Shown piece by piece: positions 41,630 to 54,893 of a DNA stretch of 64,000 nucleotides. The notes beneath the pieces were generated by a model. The model searched no databases, was not told the DNA's origin, and was given only the letters and a program-made list of their open reading frames with translations. Source of the DNA: Sabellastarte sp. h YS-2021 (taxonomy: Eukaryota; Annelida; Polychaeta; Sabellida; Sabellidae); contig OZ024927.1 in the NCBI GenBank assembly GCA_964017235.1, positions 22,773,160 to 22,837,159 of the forward strand, given 5' to 3'. Within the stretch, counting starts at the first letter, position 1; every line of letters begins with the position of its first letter. A program made the position numbers and the translations under genes.

Positions 41630-42804
41630 GAGTTAGGAGATACAACTAAGGATATAGAGAGGAGGAGGGAGAGACGGGAGAGAGAGCAGAGAGAGAGGAG
41701 AGAACAGGAAGAGAGGGACAGAGAGAGGATGGAGGGAGAGAGAGAGAGAGGAGGGAAGAGAGCCAGGAAAGAGGAGATAAGAGAGCACGAACTGACACGG
41801 ATGCTGATGTAGAATCAACTCAATCCAGACAGAAGAAAGGCCAGATGAAGTCCATTTTCCTGAGTGATTCAGTCGAAGAAGCCATCGTGGAGTTCATTAA
41901 ACAGCACAAAGAACTTTATGACAAGACCAACGACAGTTTCAAAGACAAGCAGAAGAAAGAAAGACTTTGGGAGCAGCTAGCACCTACCAGAAACTTGCCT
42001 GTCAAGACAGTGAAGAAGTGGTTCAACACTCAACATACCATATATGGCAAGCTCACTCAGACAAAGTCAGGATAAGCAGCTGAGAAAAGCACAAAACAAC
42101 AGACCTGGATGAAGGACAGTTTCAGTTTTCTATGAGGTCACATCAGAAGGCAGGGAGTTTCCAAGTCTTCTGCATTCAAGTCACCCCAGAGACATTCTGC
42201 AGCCAGAGCCTCAGCTTCAGTTCCAGATGCATCCAGGGACACAGAATCTGAGATGGAAATCAGCATTGCCTCAGATGTTACTCATCAGCCTTCGAGCACT
42301 AGTCCCAAGTGACGACAGCCTCCAGTCGCGACTACCACCACTTCTGCAGATCCAGTCTTAGATCAGTTTCAGCAGATGAGGTTGATAATTTCCACATTTC
42401 TGGGTGCATGGCAGGACCCCACTCCAAGTCCAAGACAGTCGTTCTGCAACTATCTCCACTCTGAGATTGAACACCTGGACCCTGTTACAGTGATTGCCAA
42501 AGTACAGCAACCACCAAGGCCTTCATCAGTGTCGACACAGCCAACTTCTTACGTAGTTGTGGATGACCAACAGCCTGGGACTTCCAGACAGATGATTTTC
42601 AACCCACCTTCAGTTGCAGCTTCACAACAGGGGGAAAGTCAGCACAACACTTCTGGATTATCCAGTCTCTTTGCAGTTATACCTGGTGTGCTTCAGTATC
42701 AGCAGATGGACACACCACAACCATTTTTACCCTCTCAACTTCAACCAGCACCCTCACCAGTGCCATCTTCCACTCATCATGAACATTTACGACCTTCCAG
42801 CTAG
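41630..42804 (+). pseudogene. MADF-type DNA-binding protein relic of the half PIF/Harbinger element
   Basis: The coding remnant begins with a purine-rich stretch (41640-41790) giving an Arg/Glu-rich region. The MADF domain follows: SDSVEEAIVEFIKQHKELYD, KKERLWEQLA and KTVKKWFNTQHTIYGKL (41857-42065). A stop at 42073 and shifts follow before the C-terminal part (42376-42804: TFLGAWQDP, SFCNYLHSEIE, GLSSLFAVIPG). It matches the intact protein at 52942-51734 domain for domain (SIVEFVKQHPELYD, RRWFESQRTRYGKL). Confidence 0.82.
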
Positions 42805-42862
42805 TCCAGCCAGAAGAGTCAGCCCAAATCAGCAGATTAGCCCGCACAAGTCACACCAACCA

Positions 42863-42900
42863 GGCCCTTTTCAGGGCCACCCGAATCTTCCAAAAACAAT
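42863..42900 (+). terminator. canonical histone-type 3' stem-loop after the MADF relic
   Basis: GGCCCTTTTCAGGGCC (42863-42878) is a perfect 6-bp stem with loop TTTC, preceded by ACCAACCA and followed by ACCC. It is the exact consensus of the replication-dependent histone mRNA 3' end. A purine-rich block TTCCAAAAACAAT (42888-42900) follows at the distance of a histone downstream element. It stands 58 nt after the stop codon. Confidence 0.8.
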
Positions 42901-43716
42901 GAATAACCTGAATGTTTATGAGCAAAAACAAAAAAGCATGCCGCCCAACACTTACACATCTAAACAGTACACAAAATATTGTGTGAATGAGTGAATGTTA
43001 AACAAATATTAATAAACCTCTACCACAAAACAGAAAAAAAAACTTAACAAAAAAAATCCCCTTAATACAAAATAATACCCTAAGAATTCAAAGTAAAAGC
43101 AACCCACCCCCAAAAAACTCAATTTTAAAAATACACTTCCCCCACCATGCAAATCTAAGATCCAGACTCAAGCACGTCCCTCCCACCCAAAAACCCAACC
43201 TGAAATAAAACGCCCATCCACAAAAGTAAATTTTTTTCAATGTTTGCTGGGACTTACAGACAAACAAACGTGAGGGCCAACAAAATATTGAAAAATAAGA
43301 GTGCCAGTTGAGTGACTAACAGACTGACAGACTGTATAAACAAAAATTATTAAATCGGGACTGCAAACCTGTATAATTTTGTCTTGCAAATTTCATTGCA
43401 TTTTTTTTAATTCTTGGGATAAAATATTTCCTCAAAGTTGCTTCTCTTTTAGGTATTTGTTTGAAAAATCTTTTTTTCTACTATTTTTAGAATAAATCTA
43501 GGTCATCTTGGGGTGGGATGTCAATTTGTAAATTGTGGACCTGGGTTTTAAGCTGTAAGTGAGGAAATTTATTTTTTGTGAACTGAGTTTTGGAGGGATT
43601 TGGGTTTGTGATGGGAAATATTTGGGTTGAAATTGAATTTACATGAAATAGTTAGAAAATTGGGGTTACTTTTGAGGCAACACTTTGCTAAATAAAAGTT
43701 CTTGGATTATTTGGGT

Positions 43717-43732
43717 AGTCCTGAAAAGGACT
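43717..43732 (-). terminator. histone-type stem-loop on the lost transposase side
   Basis: Minus-strand AGTCCTTTTCAGGACT followed by ACCCAAATAATCC. It matches AGTCCTTTTCAGGACT-ACCAAATATTCC after the transposase gene of the complete element, so it marks where the missing convergent transposase gene ended. Confidence 0.7.
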
Positions 43733-43737
43733 GATAG

Positions 43738-45039: not shown

Positions 45040-45998
45040 AGATCTTTAAGGCCAGGGGGTGACTTGGGAGCTGCTGATGCACTCTTTGGAATGCGGCATG
45101 AGGGTGATTGGTGGTATCAATATAATGCAGCAATGCATGGGCAAAGTTTATTTGCTGGGGATGAGCTTAGAGGACATAACAGGAAAGTGGGCAAAAGGTC
45201 AAGGTTATGCATGATTTGTATGATTGCACTGGAAATTGGGAGGACTATTTGACACATTTTAATGTAGGGGCTGAGCTCAATGGATGGAACCCAGGGGAAA
45301 AACAACAGTTCTTAGCTGTCACTCTCGGAGGAGAAGCATGCAAAATGCTTCCGTCACTGCCTGAAGGAGCGTGATGGGATTTTGATGCTTTTGTAGAAGT
45401 ATTAGGTAGGAGATTTAATCCTGGAGACAAAACGGAACTCCGTAGGATCCAGTTAAGAAACTATACTAGGAAGGACAAGGAATCCATACATCAGTTAGCC
45501 CAGACAGTGCCAAATCCAGCCATTAAGGCTTACCCAGAGGCAAGAGGGAACCTATTAGAGATGCATGGCAGGGACCACTTTATTGATGCTTTAAATGAGC
45601 CAGATATAAGGGTCAGAATATTTCAGTCAAAGGTAGCCACTTTGGATGAAGCAGTTAGAGTTGCTGTAGAGTTGGAAGCATTCCAGATGGCTGAAAATCA
45701 ATGAGGTAATGCGTACAGCTGGAAGATGGTCCAGGAAGTAGCCAGTTCTTCTGGCAAACAACACAGTCAGGAGTTTGAAACCAAAATTATTGAGACCATG
45801 CAATTACTGTCAAAGATGATTAATTCTTTGAAGGAGGAAGTACAGGAACTCAAGTATAAAGAGAATAGGAATTCTGAGAATTTCAGATGCTGGAACTGTG
45901 GTAACCAAGGACACAGTCGCAAGGACTGCACAAAGAAAAGACAAGGAGATGGCTTTGGGTTCACACCCAGGGGAGATAGGTCTAAACTGTCAAACTAG
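45040..45998 (+). pseudogene. Gypsy gag relic
   Basis: Fragments in several frames. VLGRRFNPGDKTELRRIQLR and QLAQTVPNPAIKAYPEARG are capsid-like. A stop at about 45702 and a coiled Lys/Glu-rich stretch follow, then the CCHC zinc knuckle CWNCGNQGHSRKDC near 45890. Stops at 45250 and 45375 and frame changes break it. Confidence 0.8.
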
Positions 45999-46029
45999 AA
46001 GGGGCTGATTCTGGGGGCCAGAAATCAGT

Positions 46030-48932
46030 CCAAGGAGATAATTGGCCTCATAAGGTTCCAGCAGTGTATGGGGAGAATGGGATTAGTATCAATGGGAAAA
46101 TTAGTGAAACTCATGTTAAATTTCTTATTGATACAAGCTCAGCAGTAACTTTGTTGTCAAAAGACATATTTAATGTTGTCGATAAGGATTCTAGAATTAA
46201 GTTAGATGTACCCTTCAAATAGGGCTTGCAGAAGGACAGGAGCTTGAGGTCTTAGGACAGTTCTCTTGTAAGTTAGATTTTGATAAAAATCGGTTGACAC
46301 ATACTATGATTGTAGCTGATGTAAAACCTGAAGGAATTCTTGGCATGGACTTTCTGATGAACATTGACTGTAAAGTAGATATAAACAGATCAGAAATGAT
46401 ACTGGATGGACAGAAAATTTTGACAAATGTGGATGGAGACATTGAAGTACAATGTTGCCGAGTGGCAACTACCAGTGATGTATGGCTTAGACCCTATGAA
46501 CAGACTATATTGCAGGCCAAGTCATGTAGGAGAGGCAAATTGGCACAAAATATGATTATAGAGGGATCCTCTTTGCTGGTTGAAAGGGACAGTATTTTTG
46601 TGGCTAGATCTTTAGTAGATGTCACAAAAATATACCATTCCGATGAAGGTAGTTAACATGTCTGATGAGGAAGTTTTGCTTAGAAGGGGAACCACTTTGG
46701 CAATTGGGTATCCTGTGACTGATATCATAGATGTGGGCTTAGAACAACAGCTTATTAATCAAGTCACAAGACAATCAAATCAAATCAAAAGGACAGAAAT
46801 GGAAGACCACTTGCAATACCTCTTAGTTTGAAGTTGTAAGGACTTAAGTGAACAACTCAAGGAGTTACTATTAGAGTGCCATGAAATATTTGTGGATGGT
46901 AAAGGAATAATAGGCAGGGCCAGTTTAGTTAAGCACAAAATCGACACTCGAAATGCAATACCAATTTGCCAGAGACCCATTCCAATTCACTTGTGGAAAG
47001 AAGTGGACTTAGCTATGGAGGACATGATAGCAAAAGACCTGATTGAACCATCTGATAGTCCTTGGTGCTCACCTATTTTCCTGGTTAGGAAGAAAGACAA
47101 AGGCTTAAGAACTTGCATTGATTTTTGAAAAGTCAATGATGTTTCTAGAAAAGACTCAAATAATGTGCCCTCTATACAAAAAGTTTGGACCATTTGTCAG
47201 GAGCAAAGTACTTTTCAACTTTAGATTTGACTAGTGGGTATAACCAAATTGAAATGGATCCAACAGACAAGGAAAAGACGGCCTTTTCAAATGGTAGGTA
47301 TGGCCTGTACCAGTATAAAGTGCTACCTTTTGGCCTAGCCAATGGGACAGCTACTTTTTAGAGGCTAATGGATACCATCTTCACTGGCTTACAGTGGAAG
47401 GAGTTGATACTGTATGTCGATGATATAATCTCTTACAGTGTGAGTTTTGATGAAGGAATCAAAAGTCTGAGAATGGTATTTCAGCTGAAGGAAGCTGGTC
47501 TGGTCATTAAAATCTAAGAAGTGTATTCTATTTCAAAAGAAGGTGCAGTTCTTGGGACATATGGATTCTGAGGAGGGAATTTCAACTGACGCTGAGAAAA
47601 TAAGTGATATTGAGGAATGGCCAGTCCCTACTTCAGTGACACAGCTGAGAAGTTTTACTGGAATTTGTGCATACTACAGGAGATTCATTGGGTCATTTTC
47701 TGAAAAGAGAAAATAGCCAAGTTTAAATGGGATCAAAAATGTCAGGCAGCATTTATAGAAGACAAAGAGAGGATGACCAGTACTCCAGCCTTAGCCTACC
47801 CTAATACAGGGAATTGTTTCATTCTAGACACAGATGCCTCAGAGGTGCCATGGGTGCAGTGCTAAGTCAGGTACAGGACAGTCAGGAAAGAGTAATTGCC
47901 TATGACAGCAAGACATTTTCAAAAAGTGAGAGAAACTATTGCGTAACCCAGAAGGAACTTTGCTCAGTAGTGTACTTGGTGAATCTTTTTAGGCATTATT
48001 TGCTTGGAAAGAAATTTCTGATAATGATGGACCACGGCTCACTGCACTGGTTGATGAACTTTAAAAATCCTGATGGTCAGATGGCAAGGTGGTTAGAAAT
48101 CTTAGCACCAGTTGATTGTCAGATCCAACATCATCCAGGCAAAAAGCATGAAAATGCGGATCCAGAATTCCATGTAAACAATGTGGCAGACATGCACAGG
48201 AAGTGCTTGTCTAATCTTTAACAAGATGTACTGAATATAGAAAATGGTTAGAAGCTTAGAACATAAATGACATCAAGAAATGTCAGTCAGAGGTTCCAGT
48301 GCTGAGGGAAGTAATTAAATGGAAAAATGAATCAGAATAGAGGCCAGCTTGGGAGAAAATATTCAGGGAGAGAGAGAGAGAGATCAAATTTTACTGGAGT
48401 AGATGGGATCACCTTGCCCTGGAAACAGGATGTTTGTATTTCTGGGAGGCAGAAAAGGAAACAAAACAAAGAAGCTAGTTGTGCCTCAACTGCTGAAAGA
48501 TGAAATTTTCTGCATGACTCTTTAACTGCAGGACACCTAAGAGAAAAGAAAACCTTTGACAGAGTGAAGGAGCGATTCTCCTGGTACAAGTATAGGGAGT
48601 TTGTGGAGAGATGGCTTAAGCAGTGTGACTCGTGTGCTGCAAGGAAAATATCAACAAAGAAAAGAGTAGCTCCAATGCAGCAATTTTTAAGCGGTTGTCC
48701 CTTTGAGCGAATCAGTTTTGACATTTTACGACCACTACCAAGGAGTAGGAGAGGAAATCAGTACATACTGGTATTGGCTGACCACTTCACCAAGTGGACT
48801 GAGGCTGTACTAATGCCCAGCCAGGAGGCTAGTACTGTGGCTAGAAAATTTGTAGATCACTTCATATGTATATTTGGAATGCCATATGAAATAATGTTTG
48901 ACCAAGGGACATAGTTTGAATCAGAGCTGTTT
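46030..48932 (+). pseudogene. Gypsy pol relic: protease, RT, RNase H, N-terminal integrase
   Basis: Protease with KFLIDTSSAVTLLS (46110). A linker with VKPEGILGMDFL. RT with PIPIHLWKEV, SPWCSPIFLVRKKDKGLRTC, YGLYQYKVLPFGLAN-like codons and the catalytic box YVDDI at 47412-47426. RNase H region with GAMGAVLSQVQDSQERVIAY, KELCSVVY and MARWLEILAPVDCQI. The integrase has a degraded H-H-C-C finger (QCDSCAARK) and core start ISFDILRPLPRSRRGNQYIL...DHFTKW and FDQGT. At least eight stops or frameshifts. It ends where the PIF/Harbinger element has inserted; integrase resumes at 53711. Confidence 0.88.
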
Positions 48933-48954
48933 AATGCCCCTGTTCCACCAAAGG

Positions 48955-49300
48955 ATTAAGCCCCGATCCTGTTGGCAACCCTTAATCGTGGACAGTCGGT
49001 GGGAAAAAAGCAAAAATGGGCGGGAATACTAGTTGAGTTGGTATTGAAGTCTGGGATTAAGTACAGATCGGCCTCAGGAAGCCTTAGGACGCCTCAGGCG
49101 GCCCCAGACAGTCCTCGACTGGTCTGGGACTAAGAACCGACTAAGCCAGTTTTCTGGTCGGTTTCAACCATGATCCTGTCGTACACATACCGACTGGGTC
49201 TTAGGACGCCTCAGGCCTCCAGGGACTAAGAGCCGACTAACCCTTGATTAACTCCCGGCGTCCTCAGACATCCTCAGGCATCCTCAGGCCTCCCCAGTTG
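48955..49300. repeat. left subterminal motif array of the complete PIF/Harbinger element
   Basis: Many copies of cctcagg, tcctcag, ggactaag and accgacta, some as tandem runs (gacatcctcaggcatcctc). The right counterpart, 53130-53690, carries the same words in the reverse sense. Confidence 0.65.
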
Positions 49301-49314
49301 CTGGATTTTCTGGG

Positions 49315-49331
49315 TATATATATATATAAAA
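49315..49331 (+). promoter_or_regulatory. TATA box of the PIF/Harbinger transposase gene
   Basis: TATATATATATATAAAA, 43 bp before the ATG at 49374. The layout mirrors the MADF side. Confidence 0.65.
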
Positions 49332-49373
49332 TCCGCTATCTAATCACCATTGCTTTTCTAGGAACACAGCAGG

Positions 49374-50625
49374 ATGCCACCTTTTAATGGAAGACAGATT
49401 CAACAACAACTTAGGGCTTTTTTGGTTTTTATTCAGTTACACATAATCATGTATTTCCAATTTTTACATCTACCACAGCAACCACCACCAGCACCACCAC
49501 CACCCATACAGAGACCTAGAAGAAGGCACACCATGTGGGTCAGGCCATGGCTACTGCAGAGAGAAGAGAGAGGGAGCCTACCACAATATTATGGCTGATC
49601 TGTATGCCACAGACATTCCAGGATTCACCAATTACAAGAGGATGACCCCTGAATTTTTTGAAATGATAAAGACCAAACTGGAACCACATCTAGCCAGGCA
49701 GGCCACCAACTACAGAGCACCAATCAGTGTTGGGGAGGAGTTAGCCCTCACCATCATTATCATTATCCTGTCAGTTCAGGGTTGGAAGATCCACCATTGC
49801 CAAGTTTCTACCAGAAATCTGCAGGGCTATCCAGGATGAGTTCACCAGAGAGTATCTCAGATGTCCTACTACTCCAGATGAGTGGAAAAAACTGGAAAGG
49901 GAATTCAGGATCAGGTGGAATGTTCCACATGCCCTGGGAGCCCTTGATGGAAAGCATGTGGCCCTGAAGAAACCCAAGAACACTGGAGCCCTTTACCACA
50001 ACTGCAAGGGGTTCTTTTCCATTGTGATGTTGGCCCTGGTAGATGGACAGTACAAGTTTAGATGGGTGGATGCTGGGACAGCTGGATCTTGTTCAGATGC
50101 CCAGATATTTAATGCCTCTCAGCTGAAGAGGAGGATTGAAGATGCAGGATAGGCTTCCCTGACCCAGCTCCTATAACCCAGGTTGGTAGAGATGTCCCCT
50201 ACTTCATTCTGGCAGATGATGCCTTTGCCCTGAAGACCTGGTTCATGAAACCCTATGGCAGAAGGATGTTAACAAGAGAGGAAAGGATTGCCAACTATAG
50301 AATATCATGCTTTTGGCATCCTGGTTTCAAGATTCAGAGTGATGAGGACCAACATTGAACTACCCCAGAAACAGTCAGAGAAGTGGTCTTCACCTGTGTG
50401 GTTCTGCATAACATACTGAGAAGCCAGCATCAAGGTCAACATGATGGTCAGCAGCCTGGGGAGGACGATGATGATGATGTGCCTGGTGATTGTGGATTGA
50501 TTGGTGGTGCTGCTGGTGGTGGCCAAGACAGAAACCCTGCTAGAGAAGCCAAAAGACAGAGGGATTACTTCAAGGACTACTTCAATAATGAGAGAGCAGT
50601 GGCCTGGCAAGATGGCAGAATATAA
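49374..50625 (+). pseudogene. PIF/Harbinger (HARBI1-like) transposase relic
   Basis: DDE transposase of the DDE_Tnp_4 family. The N-terminal part ends at a stop at about 49595. MADLYATDIPGFTNY...FFEMIKTKLEPHL follows in another frame. A deletion and shift near 49770 removes part of the helix-turn-helix before STIAKFLPEI. Catalytic signs: GALDGKHVALKK (first Asp, 49936 region), GSCSDAQIFN (second Asp, about 50090) and REERIANYR (Glu, about 50276). A TAG at about 50150 and a shift at about 50310 break it again. The C-terminal part (FTCVVLHNILR) ends at 50625. No longer functional. Confidence 0.88.
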
Positions 50626-50642
50626 GTCCTGCTGCAGTAAAC

Positions 50643-50699
50643 AGTCCTTTTCAGGACTAACAAACAGTCCTTTTCAGGACTACCAAATATTCCAAAAAC
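50643..50699 (+). terminator. tandem histone-type stem-loops after the transposase
   Basis: Two copies of AGTCCTTTTCAGGACT (50643-50658 and 50666-50681), each a 6-bp stem with loop TTTC, period 23 bp, starting 17 nt after the stop. Preceded by AAAC; the second is followed by ACCAAATATTCCAAAAACAA, the same downstream block as in the half element. The outer pair is A-T instead of the consensus G-C. Confidence 0.72.
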
Positions 50700-50719
50700 A
50701 ATTAATCAGCTATGCTTGC

Positions 50720-50965
50720 TACAGACAAACCCCATGCCACACATAACTTGTTCAGACAGACAAACAGACAAACCCCATACCAAACATAACTTGTACAGAT
50801 GGACACACAGACAAACCCCATGCCAAACATAACTTGTTCAGGTGGACAAACAGACAAACCCCATGCCAAACATAACTTGTACAGACGGACACACAGACAA
50901 ACCCCATGCAAAACATAAGTTACACAGACTGACAAACAGACAAACACAAGTTACCCACCCAACAA
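50720..50965. repeat. about 43-bp minisatellite between the convergent PIF/Harbinger genes
   Basis: About five units of acagacaaaccccatgccaa followed by acataacttgt and a variable spacer, lying downstream of the transposase stem-loops. Confidence 0.85.
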
Positions 50966-51711
50966 ACAGATAAACCCTTTGCCAAACAAAAGCCAGACAC
51001 AAAGCCACACATAATATCCTAAATGGAATTATTTTTGTATATATTTTGAAATCCACATCCTAACATCACCAAATGTTTTTTGGGGGTTGGAAAATTATTT
51101 GTAACAAATGTTTTCATGGACATCTTAAATTTAAAATCTTCACTTCTATTCACAAATATATAGAAAATATAACCATGGAGCTAGTTTTCTTTTCAATAAT
51201 GGGGATTGTGTTTGCAAAATAGTTTGTCAGTTCTTTGGCATGGGTTCTGTTTACTTTTGGGTTTGTGTGTTTCTTGGTTGGTGGTTATTGGTATTGGGTT
51301 TGTTTTTGGTAGTTGGGTGTTAGGTTTGGTAGTGGGTTTGTTAGTTGGGGGTTATGTTTGGTATTGAGTTTGTCTGTTTGTGGGTTGGTAAGTATGTGAT
51401 AATGCCTTTTAACTCTAGGGAAGGTGTAAGTGTTGGACTTTTCAATTACAGATTTTAAACTATCCCATGGATTTTAATCTAAAAATGGGCTGATTAATGG
51501 CCATATTGGGAGTTTTTTTAATTTTTTTTTTATGTGGCCTTTTTTGTTATGTGTGGTACCATGGGTTATTTATTTCATGATGGGGTGGTGTGGGTGTTGG
51601 ACTTTAATTTTTTTTCTTGTGATAAGTATTTGTACTGAACTTTTTTGTTTTGGGGGGGGGGGGGGAATTGGAATAACTTGCAGCTGAATAATTGTTTTTG
51701 GAAGAATTGGT
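50966..51711. other. AT/GT-rich spacer between the convergent PIF/Harbinger genes
   Basis: No ORF. Contains a GT-rich low-complexity stretch (51240-51390) and a 14-G homopolymer (about 51651-51664). Confidence 0.6.
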
Positions 51712-51727
51712 GGTCCTGAAAAGGCCT
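51696..51727 (-). terminator. worn histone-type stem-loop after the MADF gene
   Basis: Minus strand AGGCCTTTTCAGGACC (51727-51712), two positions off a perfect stem, followed by ACCAATTCTTCCAAAAACAAT. The ACC and the TTCCAAAAACAAT block are shared with the other three gene ends. It lies 6 nt after the TGA. Confidence 0.6.
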
Positions 51728-51733
51728 GGCAGG

Positions 51734-52942
51734 TCAAAGACCCGCCCCGACTGGATGGCTACTGAGGAGGCTGCTGCTGCTGTTAAGGTGGTGCTGAAGT
51801 GGTGATAGTAAAGAACTGCTGCTGCGGTTGCGTTGTGTTGATGTCAGATCAGGTAGCTGGCTTAATATTCCACTCAGGTTGTGTCTGCTCCCTTCGTCCT
51901 GTACAGTTAGGACAGATGTAGGGTTGCTAAAGCCAATGGGGCTTGGTGTATAGTACACAAAACTGCTGCCAGCTGCTGCTTGAGTGGAACTAGACGCCTG
52001 TGGAGTGGTTGTTGGCAGTAGGCCGATCCTCTGGGACTCCGTGGTAACAGTGGCTAATCTTCTGGGCAATGGCTGACGTCTATGGTTGCTCTTAATAGTT
52101 ACAATGTCTCTAAATATCTTGCCATTTAATTCTTCAAATTCTTCTTGAGTCATCTTTTTTGCCTCTGATGCCACATAGTCGAAGAAGGGCTGCCTGTCTG
52201 ACTTCTGATGCAGAAAAACTGAGATTAGTGTCCTCATCTGCTCAAAGTGTTCGAGAATCTTGGAGTCTGTTGTTGAAACGGGTCTAGATGTAATGACGGA
52301 CTGACTCCTCTCCCTCAGGACACTGGACTCAAGGTTTTCTGTGTCAGTAGTTGAGCCACGTGATTTATCCTGCCTGCTGGTATTTGGGCTGGCCTCAAAA
52401 CCTGAACTTCTGTTGGCCCCCTTTTGTCTGATGTTGGTTTTAAGGAAACCCATCTGTTGGTAGACCCAGGACTGTCTCTTGGTCATCTCCCTCGGGGCTT
52501 GGCCAGATTGGACCTTAGACAGCTTGCCATAACGCGTTCGCTGGGACTCGAACCAACGTCTCGCATCAAAGGGCTGGAGCTTGAGTTCTGCAGATATTTC
52601 TGCCCAGAGAGCCTTCCTTCTGGTCCTGTCGTGGAAACGTGGATGTTCCTTGTCATACAGTTCTGGGTGCTGCTTTACAAATTCCACAATGGAAATTTCC
52701 TGACTGTCAGTAAAAGTTGCACACACCCTGGCTCTCTTGGCTGAAGAATGGCACTCTAGATCTTCTTCACACCTCTCTTCTTCTTCCACAGCTTCCTCAA
52801 TAGCTGGACGTTCCTCAATCTCCTCCTCCTCTCTCCTCTCAATCACCTCCTCTGTAACTTCAACTCTTTCCTCTACTTCACTTTCCTTCTCCCTGTCATC
52901 CATCTTTTTCCTTCCTCTCTTCACTCCTTTCTCTTTCCTCAT
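51734..52942 (-). CDS. MADF-domain DNA-binding partner protein of the PIF/Harbinger element
   Basis: Open frame of 402 aa from ATG 52942 (the frame is open further upstream but without another ATG). Order: basic start (KGVKRGRKK), Glu-rich segment about residues 15-65, MADF (Myb/SANT-like) domain about residues 80-165 with ISIVEFVKQHPELYD, RRKALWAEIS, ARRWFESQRTRYGKL and SWVYQQMGFL, then a Ser/Thr-rich region. A helical BESS-like part follows (LEHFEQMRTLISVFLHQKSD) and a Ser/Gln-rich tail. PIF/Harbinger transposons encode such a Myb-like partner, which in known cases binds element DNA and brings the transposase to the nucleus. It is open while its transposase is broken. Antisense and convergent to the transposase. 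Confidence 0.85.
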   Translation of the reverse strand: MRKEKGVKRGRKKMDDREKESEVEERVEVTEEVIERREEEEIEERPAIEEAVEEEERCEEDLECHSSAKRARVCATFTDSQEISIVEFVKQHPELYDKEHPRFHDRTRRKALWAEISAELKLQPFDARRWFESQRTRYGKLSKVQSGQAPREMTKRQSWVYQQMGFLKTNIRQKGANRSSGFEASPNTSRQDKSRGSTTDTENLESSVLRERSQSVITSRPVSTTDSKILEHFEQMRTLISVFLHQKSDRQPFFDYVASEAKKMTQEEFEELNGKIFRDIVTIKSNHRRQPLPRRLATVTTESQRIGLLPTTTPQASSSTQAAAGSSFVYYTPSPIGFSNPTSVLTVQDEGSRHNLSGILSQLPDLTSTQRNRSSSSLLSPLQHHLNSSSSLLSSHPVGAGL

Positions 52943-53110
52943 AATCCAGTCGACAAAATAATAAAAAAATAGTAAAATGTGTCTCCTGACTGAAATTTGC
53001 CTTAAGCTCAAGTATAAAATATTTTAAAAAACTGAAAACCCCTACAAATCAGTGACACACGTCTCTCAGTAGCCAAACAGTCAGTAACAATGACAAAGTG
53101 TGTGCGGTCG

Positions 53111-53120
53111 CTTATATAGT
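53111..53120 (-). promoter_or_regulatory. TATA box of the MADF gene
   Basis: Minus-strand ACTATATAAG, about 170 nt before the ATG at 52942, in a GC-richer setting. Confidence 0.6.
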
Positions 53121-53129
53121 CCCAGACCT

Positions 53130-53690
53130 CCTCATTGCCTCGTTTTAATTTTAGATGCGCGGAAAAGAGTCGGTTCTTAATCGGTTGTTAGTCCCAGGCC
53201 TCCTGGGGCATCCTCAGACCATCGCAGACTAAATTAGTGTTGTCCCAGGTGTCCTGGGGAGGCCAGTTTGGATCGGTTAGGGTCGGTTACCCTTAGGCTT
53301 AGTCCCAGACCTAGATTTTTGGGTTCCAGGACACTGCAGACGGTCTGAGGCTTCCTGCGACTAATGCAACCAACTCACTTTCAGATGCATGAAATTCATA
53401 CGCATCATATTTGAGTCTGGGATTAACAACCGGTCTCCTGGGACTAAGCAACGAAGGTCTGGGACTAAGGGTCACAGGCGGCCTGGGACAACACACGACT
53501 GTGTAAAATTGGGTCTGAGGAGGCCTGAAAAAGCCTGGGACTGGACATTTTGTTGAGGGCGGGAAATATGAATCGGTTGTAGTCGTAAGAAATATCAAAC
53601 ATGTTTGATTTTTTACACGGCCTCAACCGACAACAACCGACCCTTACAGAAGGTCTGGGACTAAGCAAATTAATTGGAAGCCTTAGTCAT
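53130..53690. repeat. right subterminal motif array of the complete PIF/Harbinger element
   Basis: Dense gtcggtt, ggtctggg, gggactaa and aggcctcctg words plus the palindromic core aaacatgtttga (53589-53600), shared with the half element. Confidence 0.65.
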
Positions 53691-53710
53691 GTGGTGGAAC
53701 ACCCACATTA

Positions 53711-53843
53711 GGAACTGTGTCAATTGTTGGGAATTGATAAAACCAGGACCACAGGGTACCATCCTAGCTCAAATGCCTTAGTGGAGAGGTTTAATCATAC
53801 TTTAGGGAGCATGATAAGCCATTATGTGTCAGAGGACCAAACA
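53711..53843 (+). pseudogene. Gypsy integrase, middle part
   Basis: Continues the integrase cut at 48932: LCQLLGIDKTRTTGYHPSSN and ALVERFNHTLGSMISHYV (core end with the catalytic Glu), then TDWDV. Ends where an L2-like LINE is inserted. Confidence 0.88.
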
Positions 53844-53844
53844 G

Positions 53845-54893
53845 ATTGGGATGTTACCACTTCTATGCGGACGACACTCAGTTGTTCATTCACTTATCCC
53901 CTGATGATAGTCTCAAGTCTTTTGACCGTCTTAAATCATGTTTGAATGATATTCAGGTCTGGATGTCTGAAAACAAACTCAAGCTAAATCCCGATAAAAC
54001 AGAATTCATAGTCTTCGGTGCCAAAGACAGATACAAATGGCTCAGTGACTCACTACCTGTCAATATCCTGGGAAATTGTCTCTCTCCCGCAGATGTTGTA
54101 CGCAATCTGGGCGTTCTGTTTGATGCAAAGTTTTGTTTCACCAATCACGTAAATTCTGTTATCAAATCCTGCTTTATCAGCCTCAGGGACCTTCATCGTA
54201 TCAGGAGGTTTCTTTCTGTGGATACATCAGTGGTGATTGCAAATGCTCTGGTCAGTAGTCGTTTGGATTATTGCAACTCTCTTTTTCGCAGTTTGTCATC
54301 CCGAAATGCTACAAGGCTCCAATATGTTCAAAATGCGCTTGCACGGTTTGTCACTGGTGCTTCAAAGTACACTCACATTACATCCACCCTTAGGACACTC
54401 CATTGGCTACCCGTTAGACAACGTATTATCTTCAAAACCCTAGTTTTGGTCTATAAGTACCTCACCACTGGCCAGCCTAAGTATTTTGCACCATATCTCC
54501 CCTTGTACAAATCTGCCGTGAATACAAGACGTTCCAATCCCAAAAATTTGTTCCTTCTGGTTCCCTCTTACTGTCCTTCCATCCATAAATCAAAGGTCCA
54601 TTTTAACAATAGTTTCTCATATGATGCCCCTAAGTTATGGAATGATCTTCCATATGATATACGCAGTGCTCCAAATCTCTCCAGTTTCAAAAGTCGACTC
54701 AAAACCTACATATTTCAGAAATCATTCCCACCATAGCTTCTTACTACCGAACACCGGACCGCCTCCCTGGCAACGACTCGGAACATGTCTAATGTCTCAT
54801 GATTTATGCCTTACGGATTGGATGGTGTGCCTTAGAATCCGTTGATACGGAGATTAAGCACCTGGACAACTGATTGATTGATTGATATCCCAT
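53845..54893 (+). mobile_element. 5'-truncated L2/CR1-like LINE inserted in Gypsy integrase
   Basis: Begins inside RT at HFYADDTQLF (catalytic box). An open frame of about 296 codons runs to 54736: KLKLNPDKTEFIVFG, NLGVLFDAKFCFTNHV, LVSSRLDYCNSLF, LQYVQNALARFVTGASK, HWLPVRQRIIFKTLVLVYK and YDAPKLWNDLPYDIRSAPNL. The 3' end is a (TGAT)n tail at 54872-54890. It is the least damaged of the three L2-like copies in the window. Coding starts within RT, so it cannot act on its own. Confidence 0.92.

Follow-up and report, generated by a model that had tools for sequence, protein, structure and literature searches.

Histone-type mRNA 3´ end signals in PIF/Harbinger transposons of the annelid Sabellastarte sp.

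PIF/Harbinger DNA transposons in the genome of the sabellid annelid Sabellastarte sp. h YS-2021 carry a predicted histone-type mRNA 3´ end. As read from their sequence, both of the convergent genes of these elements, one for the transposase and one for a MADF (Myb-like) protein, appear to end in a stem-loop of six pairs and a 4-nt loop that matches the host's own, followed by ACC(C/A) and a histone downstream element. The signal was recognised in a stretch of 64,000 nt (contig OZ024927.1, positions 22,773,160 to 22,837,159; referred to here as the window), which contains two PIF/Harbinger elements whose gene ends, four of four, have a histone-type stem-loop. These ends score 34.8, 29.6, 33.1 and 21.1 bits against the Rfam model RF00032 (Histone3), and the cut-off of 34 bits is exceeded by the first (42858-42904) only. 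The best explanation, and in our judgement a probable one, is that the transposons make SLBP/U7-dependent, non-polyadenylated and replication-coupled mRNAs.

The highest-scoring end lies 3´ of the MADF gene of element 1 (family B). A first-pass annotation, made from the sequence of the window, had described a stem-loop, ACCC and downstream sequence at 42863-42900 behind a MADF-protein gene, and all of these parts are there: the stem-loop GGCCCT-TTTC-AGGGCC (GGCCCTTTTCAGGGCC; 42863-42878, plus strand), ACCC directly 3´ of it (42879-42882, plus strand) and, at 42888-42910 on the same strand, a sequence like a type I histone downstream element, which starts with TTCCAAAAACAAT (42888-42900), aligns with the host H3 element and is kept across families. 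In a cmscan search of the whole window, RF00032 matched 42858-42904 (plus strand) with an E value of 2.5e-6, the alignment spanning all 46 model positions (stem, loop, ACC and downstream part). This was the sole match above the gathering score of any Rfam family, and matches far under the cut-offs were taken as chance. The gene upstream is a decayed MADF-protein gene (41650-42840, plus strand), delimited by comparison with a sister copy (L024) and consisting of one frame with in-frame stops, in which the MADF domain (PF10545) was found at 41650-42075 (E 2.6e-8). The distance of 58 nt between stop codon and stem-loop given in the first-pass annotation has to be revised. The stop on which it was based (42802-42804) looks premature, the codon being CAG in L024, and the stop common to both copies, in the same frame at 42838-42840, lies 22 nt upstream of the stem-loop.

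Three more histone-type ends are present in the window, at 43692-43737 (minus strand), 50661-50706 (plus strand) and 51687-51731 (minus strand, decayed). The first of these, on the transposase side of element 1, contains the stem-loop AGTCCT-TTTC-AGGACT (43717-43732, minus strand; 29.6 bits, below the cut-off), after which come ACCC and a type II downstream element that reaches ~43687. No transposase coding sequence of element 1 was found upstream of this stem-loop; the stem-loop and its tail match those behind family-B transposase genes. Element 2 (family A; 48935-53707) has two convergent genes and TIR arms at both ends (48932-48960 and 53682-53710) that are 76% complementary, flanked in the window copy by the non-identical triplets TAA and TTA. 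The frames of its transposase gene (49447-50625, plus strand; stop TAA at 50623-50625) are broken, and DDE_Tnp_4 (PF13359) was found at 49745-50152 (E 2.8e-12). Behind this gene, two stem-loops with the sequence AGTCCTTTTCAGGACT form a tandem repeat with a period of 23. The inner one (50643-50658, plus strand), 17 nt past the stop, is followed by AAC without a downstream element, and the outer one (50666-50681, plus strand; 33.1 bits, below the cut-off) has behind it both ACC and, at 50685-50711 (plus strand), a type I downstream element. The MADF-protein gene of element 2 (51734-53023, minus strand) is a 429-aa open frame with PF10545 (E 8.2e-13), the end of which is frame-shifted relative to the stop TAG (51759-51761) common to other copies. 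The stem-loop 3´ of it is decayed; ACC and a type I downstream element accompany it (51687-51731, minus strand), and a search of 5 kb scored this end at 21.1 bits (E 0.025). Within each of the two elements, the signals point towards one another, and each is in sense orientation 3´ of its own gene side.

We also noted other repeated sequences in the window. Between the convergent genes of element 2 there are 5.2 copies of a 43-bp tandem repeat (50721-50945), which can also be aligned, in shifted register, with other family-A loci. The remains of an LTR-type retroelement, mostly judged by eye from frames, lie between the two PIF/Harbinger elements (45375-48914), with a zinc knuckle (PF00098) confirmed at 45705-45998, and a reverse transcriptase fragment (PF00078, E 2.6e-7) is found at 53795-54736.

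A lenient stem-loop pattern with one mismatch allowed is expected 0.31 times per shuffled window, so that the bare pattern is unremarkable and could come from a chance palindrome; the full model with its flanks is striking. The E value of the whole-model match, the four gene ends in the window and the genomic copies reduce the probability of a chance palindrome to practically nothing, and this reading was rejected. The exact 16-mer occurs 2,277 times (1,164 + 1,113) in the 1.79-Gb genome compared to 0 times for a reversed-pattern control, as the 16-mer belongs to transposon families. Two further readings were rejected, namely that the stem-loop is part of the TIRs, which are located elsewhere, and that it is a histone gene leftover beside a transposon, given that MADF and transposase genes of several families share the signal. 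No relatives were found in viral contigs by protein search; one DNA pattern match in a viral contig had no stem and was taken as chance.

The elements had been called PIF/Harbinger-like, and this assignment is borne out by their domains and termini. In addition to the window, DDE_Tnp_4 was found in a family-A copy (L013, E 4.4e-33) and in the family-B copy L024, and the MADF domain was found in both window elements, L013 and L024; no histone family is among the Pfam domains of the transposon genes examined. Of five family-A copies in which TIRs were sought, four have them at both ends together with target duplications (TAA/TAA, TTA/TTA, TAA/TAA and TAA/TAA), while one end only was found for the fifth; this check of both ends covered family A. 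A DDE_Tnp_4 transposase, a MADF/Myb-like second gene, TIRs and 3-bp TWA target duplications are features shared with the PIF/Harbinger (PHIS) superfamily as defined in the pertinent part of PMC4482050. A search with the family-A transposase protein gave at least 126 copies; all 126 scored matches (of 20,089 candidates) are at least 98% identical, and 120 of them have no internal stop. This suggests that family A has been active recently and that intact copies exist. Family B is older, with the 150 matches scored of 12,041 candidates being 80 to 88% identical, the query itself aside.

Sixty of the 2,277 exact 16-mer sites were examined, all on contig 1 (20 at L009-L028, 39 at L053-L091 and the window), and all 60 are ends of MADF-type genes. 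They fall into five gene-end classes (40 in A, 14 in A´ and two each in B, C and D), five of the sites being the references themselves. As these sites were picked by the stem-loop, they cannot show how often the signal is retained, which loci picked by the transposase protein can. Among 20 family-A loci picked in this way, one of which is the query's own element, a stem-loop, ACC and a downstream element are present 3´ of both genes in all 20, with 39 of the 40 stems perfect and one carrying a single mismatch. For family B, a histone-type end is found 3´ of the transposase in 18 of 20 copies, with six Watson-Crick pairs in 10 and ACC in 15 of the 18; no such end was found 3´ of the transposase in the other two copies (L126 and L129). 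The first-pass annotation had named other genomic copies lacking the stem-loop as an outcome that would speak against its reading, and these counts went the other way. Among the first 20 loci picked by the stem-loop, the signal is present on the transposase side in 17 and absent in L014, L022 and L028.

Individual copies vary in the parts of the signal. ACC is replaced by GCCC or AAC in some (L055, L070, L086 and L024). Unlike replication-dependent histone genes, the family-A transposase gene has one to three tandem stem-loops, and since only the last one has ACC and a downstream element, the inner stem-loops may be extra binding sites or products of slippage. RF00032 matched L013, L024, L114 and L115, with L013 (35.2 bits) and L115 (34.6 bits) above the cut-off and other transposon ends scoring just under it (for example 33.8 and 33.1 bits). 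The distance from stop to stem-loop in representative transposon copies is 17 to 48 nt (32 nt for the family-A MADF gene). One locus (L028; G000 C1:64935297-64942612) is a head-to-tail array of a 1,460-bp unit that includes the family-A MADF-side stem-loop, with six listed exact stem-loop sites at this spacing.

The host's own histone genes provide the comparison for these ends. The H3, H2B and H2A genes have GGCTCTTTTCAGAGCC at 33, 34 and 31 nt past the stop, respectively, a longer H2A gene has GGTCCTTTTCAGGACC 31 nt past the stop, and the H4 stem-loop (L052) is 41 nt past the stop by coordinates. Two host downstream elements can be distinguished, CTTCCAAAAACAATTAATAAGCTG (H3, with a close form at H4) and CTTTCAAGAACTTTTATTTAAGCTAG (H2B, with a close form at H2A). 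The CTTCCAAAAACAATTAATAAGCTG type is found in family A at both genes and in family B at the MADF gene, and the CTTTCAAGAACTTTTATTTAAGCTAG type at the family-B transposase gene. The transposon downstream elements align with those of H3, H2A, H2B and the longer H2A gene, in agreement with the earlier suggestion that 42888-42900 corresponds to the downstream element of histone genes. Neither an H2A.Z-type gene (L033) nor the final exon of an H3.3-type gene (L034), both named from their translated sequences, has a perfect histone-type stem-loop in the stretch of DNA analysed. Near the histone cluster, there are also decayed histone gene copies (L037 and L040; G000 C2:27659066 and C2:27662151), one a stretch with two stops and one weakened stem pair, and one a truncated H2B. 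The SLBP RNA-binding domain (SLBP_RNA_bind, PF15247) has two matches, both on contig 6 (56.8 and 35.9 bits, cut-off 27), the weaker of which contains TAG. For U7 snRNA (RF00066), there were 0 matches among 65 scored of 574,071 candidates, in a search that detected no control either.

The histone-type end is not universal in these transposons. In family D (L114 and L115), a more divergent element, it is found 3´ of the MADF-like gene only, and no stem-loop was found at the transposase gene in L115. The family D transposase piece matches no Pfam family and is 58% identical to family A over 57 residues, and the MADF-like gene matches PF10545 at 17.1 bits in L115 (cut-off 22) and not in L114. The stem behind the MADF-like gene is followed by CCC, not ACC, and of the two family-D downstream elements one is close to the CTTTCAAGAACTTTTATTTAAGCTAG type and one is a mixed form. 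The presence of the signal at the MADF-like gene only suggests that it belongs to the genes and can be gained or lost; from its predicted signals, the mRNAs of a single family D element would end in two different ways.

Six representative ends, which differ in family and gene, were compared. The stem-loop has an identity of 0.87, the ten bases after it 0.74 and the core of the downstream element 0.86, the stem-loop value being biased, and the downstream value less so, because the representatives were picked for their stem-loops. Identity falls to 0.51 in two bins past the downstream-element core and is 0.36-0.48 elsewhere. Between transposon and host histone ends, the corresponding bins are 0.81, 0.67 and 0.82, and blastn of the window element against family A aligned ~41 nt at 95%. 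Judged by these alignments, the signal is an isolated conserved island between families. In 20 ends, host included and picked as intact stems, all stem cells pair, compared to 89.1% in shuffles, and the covariation score of the stem (0.478, shuffled mean 0.248) was reached by none of 500 shuffles. Three stem pairs with changes on both sides were reached by 144 of the 500 shuffles and four further pair types by all 500; independent stem changes are few, as the variation is mostly between gene classes.

These data bear on whether the signal is a relic, in which case a histone 3´ end captured by an ancestor would have been inherited without present use and the mRNAs would be polyadenylated further downstream. 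Three of the four representative transposon ends do have AATAAA, 148-200 nt past the start of the stem, the near-identity of family-A copies means that their 20 of 20 follows from descent, and the family D transposase gene manages without the signal. We nevertheless consider a relic unlikely, as the signal alone is alike between families, with both flanks at background, it is shared by two genes that are unrelated and lie on opposite strands, its stem differs in paired fashion among gene classes and the downstream elements still match those of the host. AATAAA is also found behind the host H3 and H2A genes, and C. elegans histone genes keep AATAAA yet end after the hairpin, as reported in the relevant section of PMC1924863. 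The same motifs would fit a stem-loop that binds SLBP for a step other than 3´ end formation, for instance when a polyadenylated mRNA is translated or stored in eggs, and SLBP is described as acting in translation too (PMC1924863, in its part on SLBP). Such a role would not account for a downstream element, the part lost from the RNA on cleavage, that is as conserved as the stem-loop (0.86 compared to 0.87), and we give it little credence.

The facing signals between convergent genes in both window elements could instead point to an element acting at the DNA level, either a site for the transposase or the MADF protein or a terminator that prevents double-stranded RNA from the convergent genes. 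We think this very improbable: the TIRs are located elsewhere, the arrangement is that of histone genes with ACC and a host-type downstream element in sense orientation behind each gene, and family D has the signal on one side only. Separation of the convergent transcripts could be a by-product of histone-type ends.

Collectively, the signals, their positions and sense orientation, the island of conservation, the match to host H3, H4, H2A and H2B ends and the SLBP-type matches, all of them features of DNA sequence, are consistent with SLBP/U7-dependent 3´ ends on the transposon mRNAs. As far as sequence can tell, they favour the proposal of the first-pass annotation that the element may use histone-type ends without poly(A), with its expression tied to S phase. 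For such signals, a pathway of SLBP binding, U7 pairing and cleavage past the stem-loop is described in the corresponding part of PMC1924863. By analogy, host SLBP would bind the transposon stem-loop, the U7 snRNP would pair with the downstream element and the pre-mRNA would be cut just past the stem-loop. The resulting mRNAs would lack poly(A) tails and be produced mostly in S phase, and the proteins for transposition would be made during DNA replication, which would favour copy gain. On balance we lean slightly towards a broader proposal, that a PIF/Harbinger lineage has taken over the host histone mRNA pathway to express both genes. The transposase and its DNA-binding partner would then be made from non-polyadenylated mRNAs during replication, and the mRNA 3´ end would set the timing of transposition and help to account for the recent burst, which comprises at least 126 copies that are 98% or more identical.

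Compared to replication-dependent histone genes of metazoans, the transposon genes are alike in the stem-loop, ACC, downstream element and short distance from the stop (the pathway being taken from part of PMC1924863), but they encode a transposase and a MADF protein, as judged by the DDE_Tnp_4 and MADF domains, and their stems are GGCCCT or AGTCCT rather than the GGCTCT or GGTCCT of histone genes. Compared to other PIF/Harbinger elements, the difference lies in the histone-type 3´ end signal that each of the two genes carries. The sea krait element Harbinger-Snek, which has relatives in marine animals, is alike in having a transposase, a Myb-like protein and a recent burst, according to PMC8437027, the comparison covering its genes and burst. 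The words "histone" and "stem-loop" are absent from the main texts of PMC4482050, PMC10294476, PMC8437027 and PMC8905726. Among the open-access titles and abstracts listed, we found no earlier description of histone-type ends on a transposon; a known transposon superfamily and a known host signal are thus found in a combination without earlier description in this literature.

Histone-type ends that lack poly(A) are regarded as almost exclusive to replication-dependent histone genes. If our reading is true, these elements would be a natural high-copy hijack of the histone 3´ end pathway by a DNA transposon. They could look silent in ordinary RNA-seq, as surveys based on poly(A) would miss their transcripts. 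Since such ends number in the thousands and 13 histone matches were found in the genome, the transposons might compete with histone mRNAs for SLBP, and the natural variation of stem and downstream element among their many copies could reveal the requirements of SLBP and U7. Transposase synthesis would be tied to S phase, giving a testable route to replication-coupled transposition.
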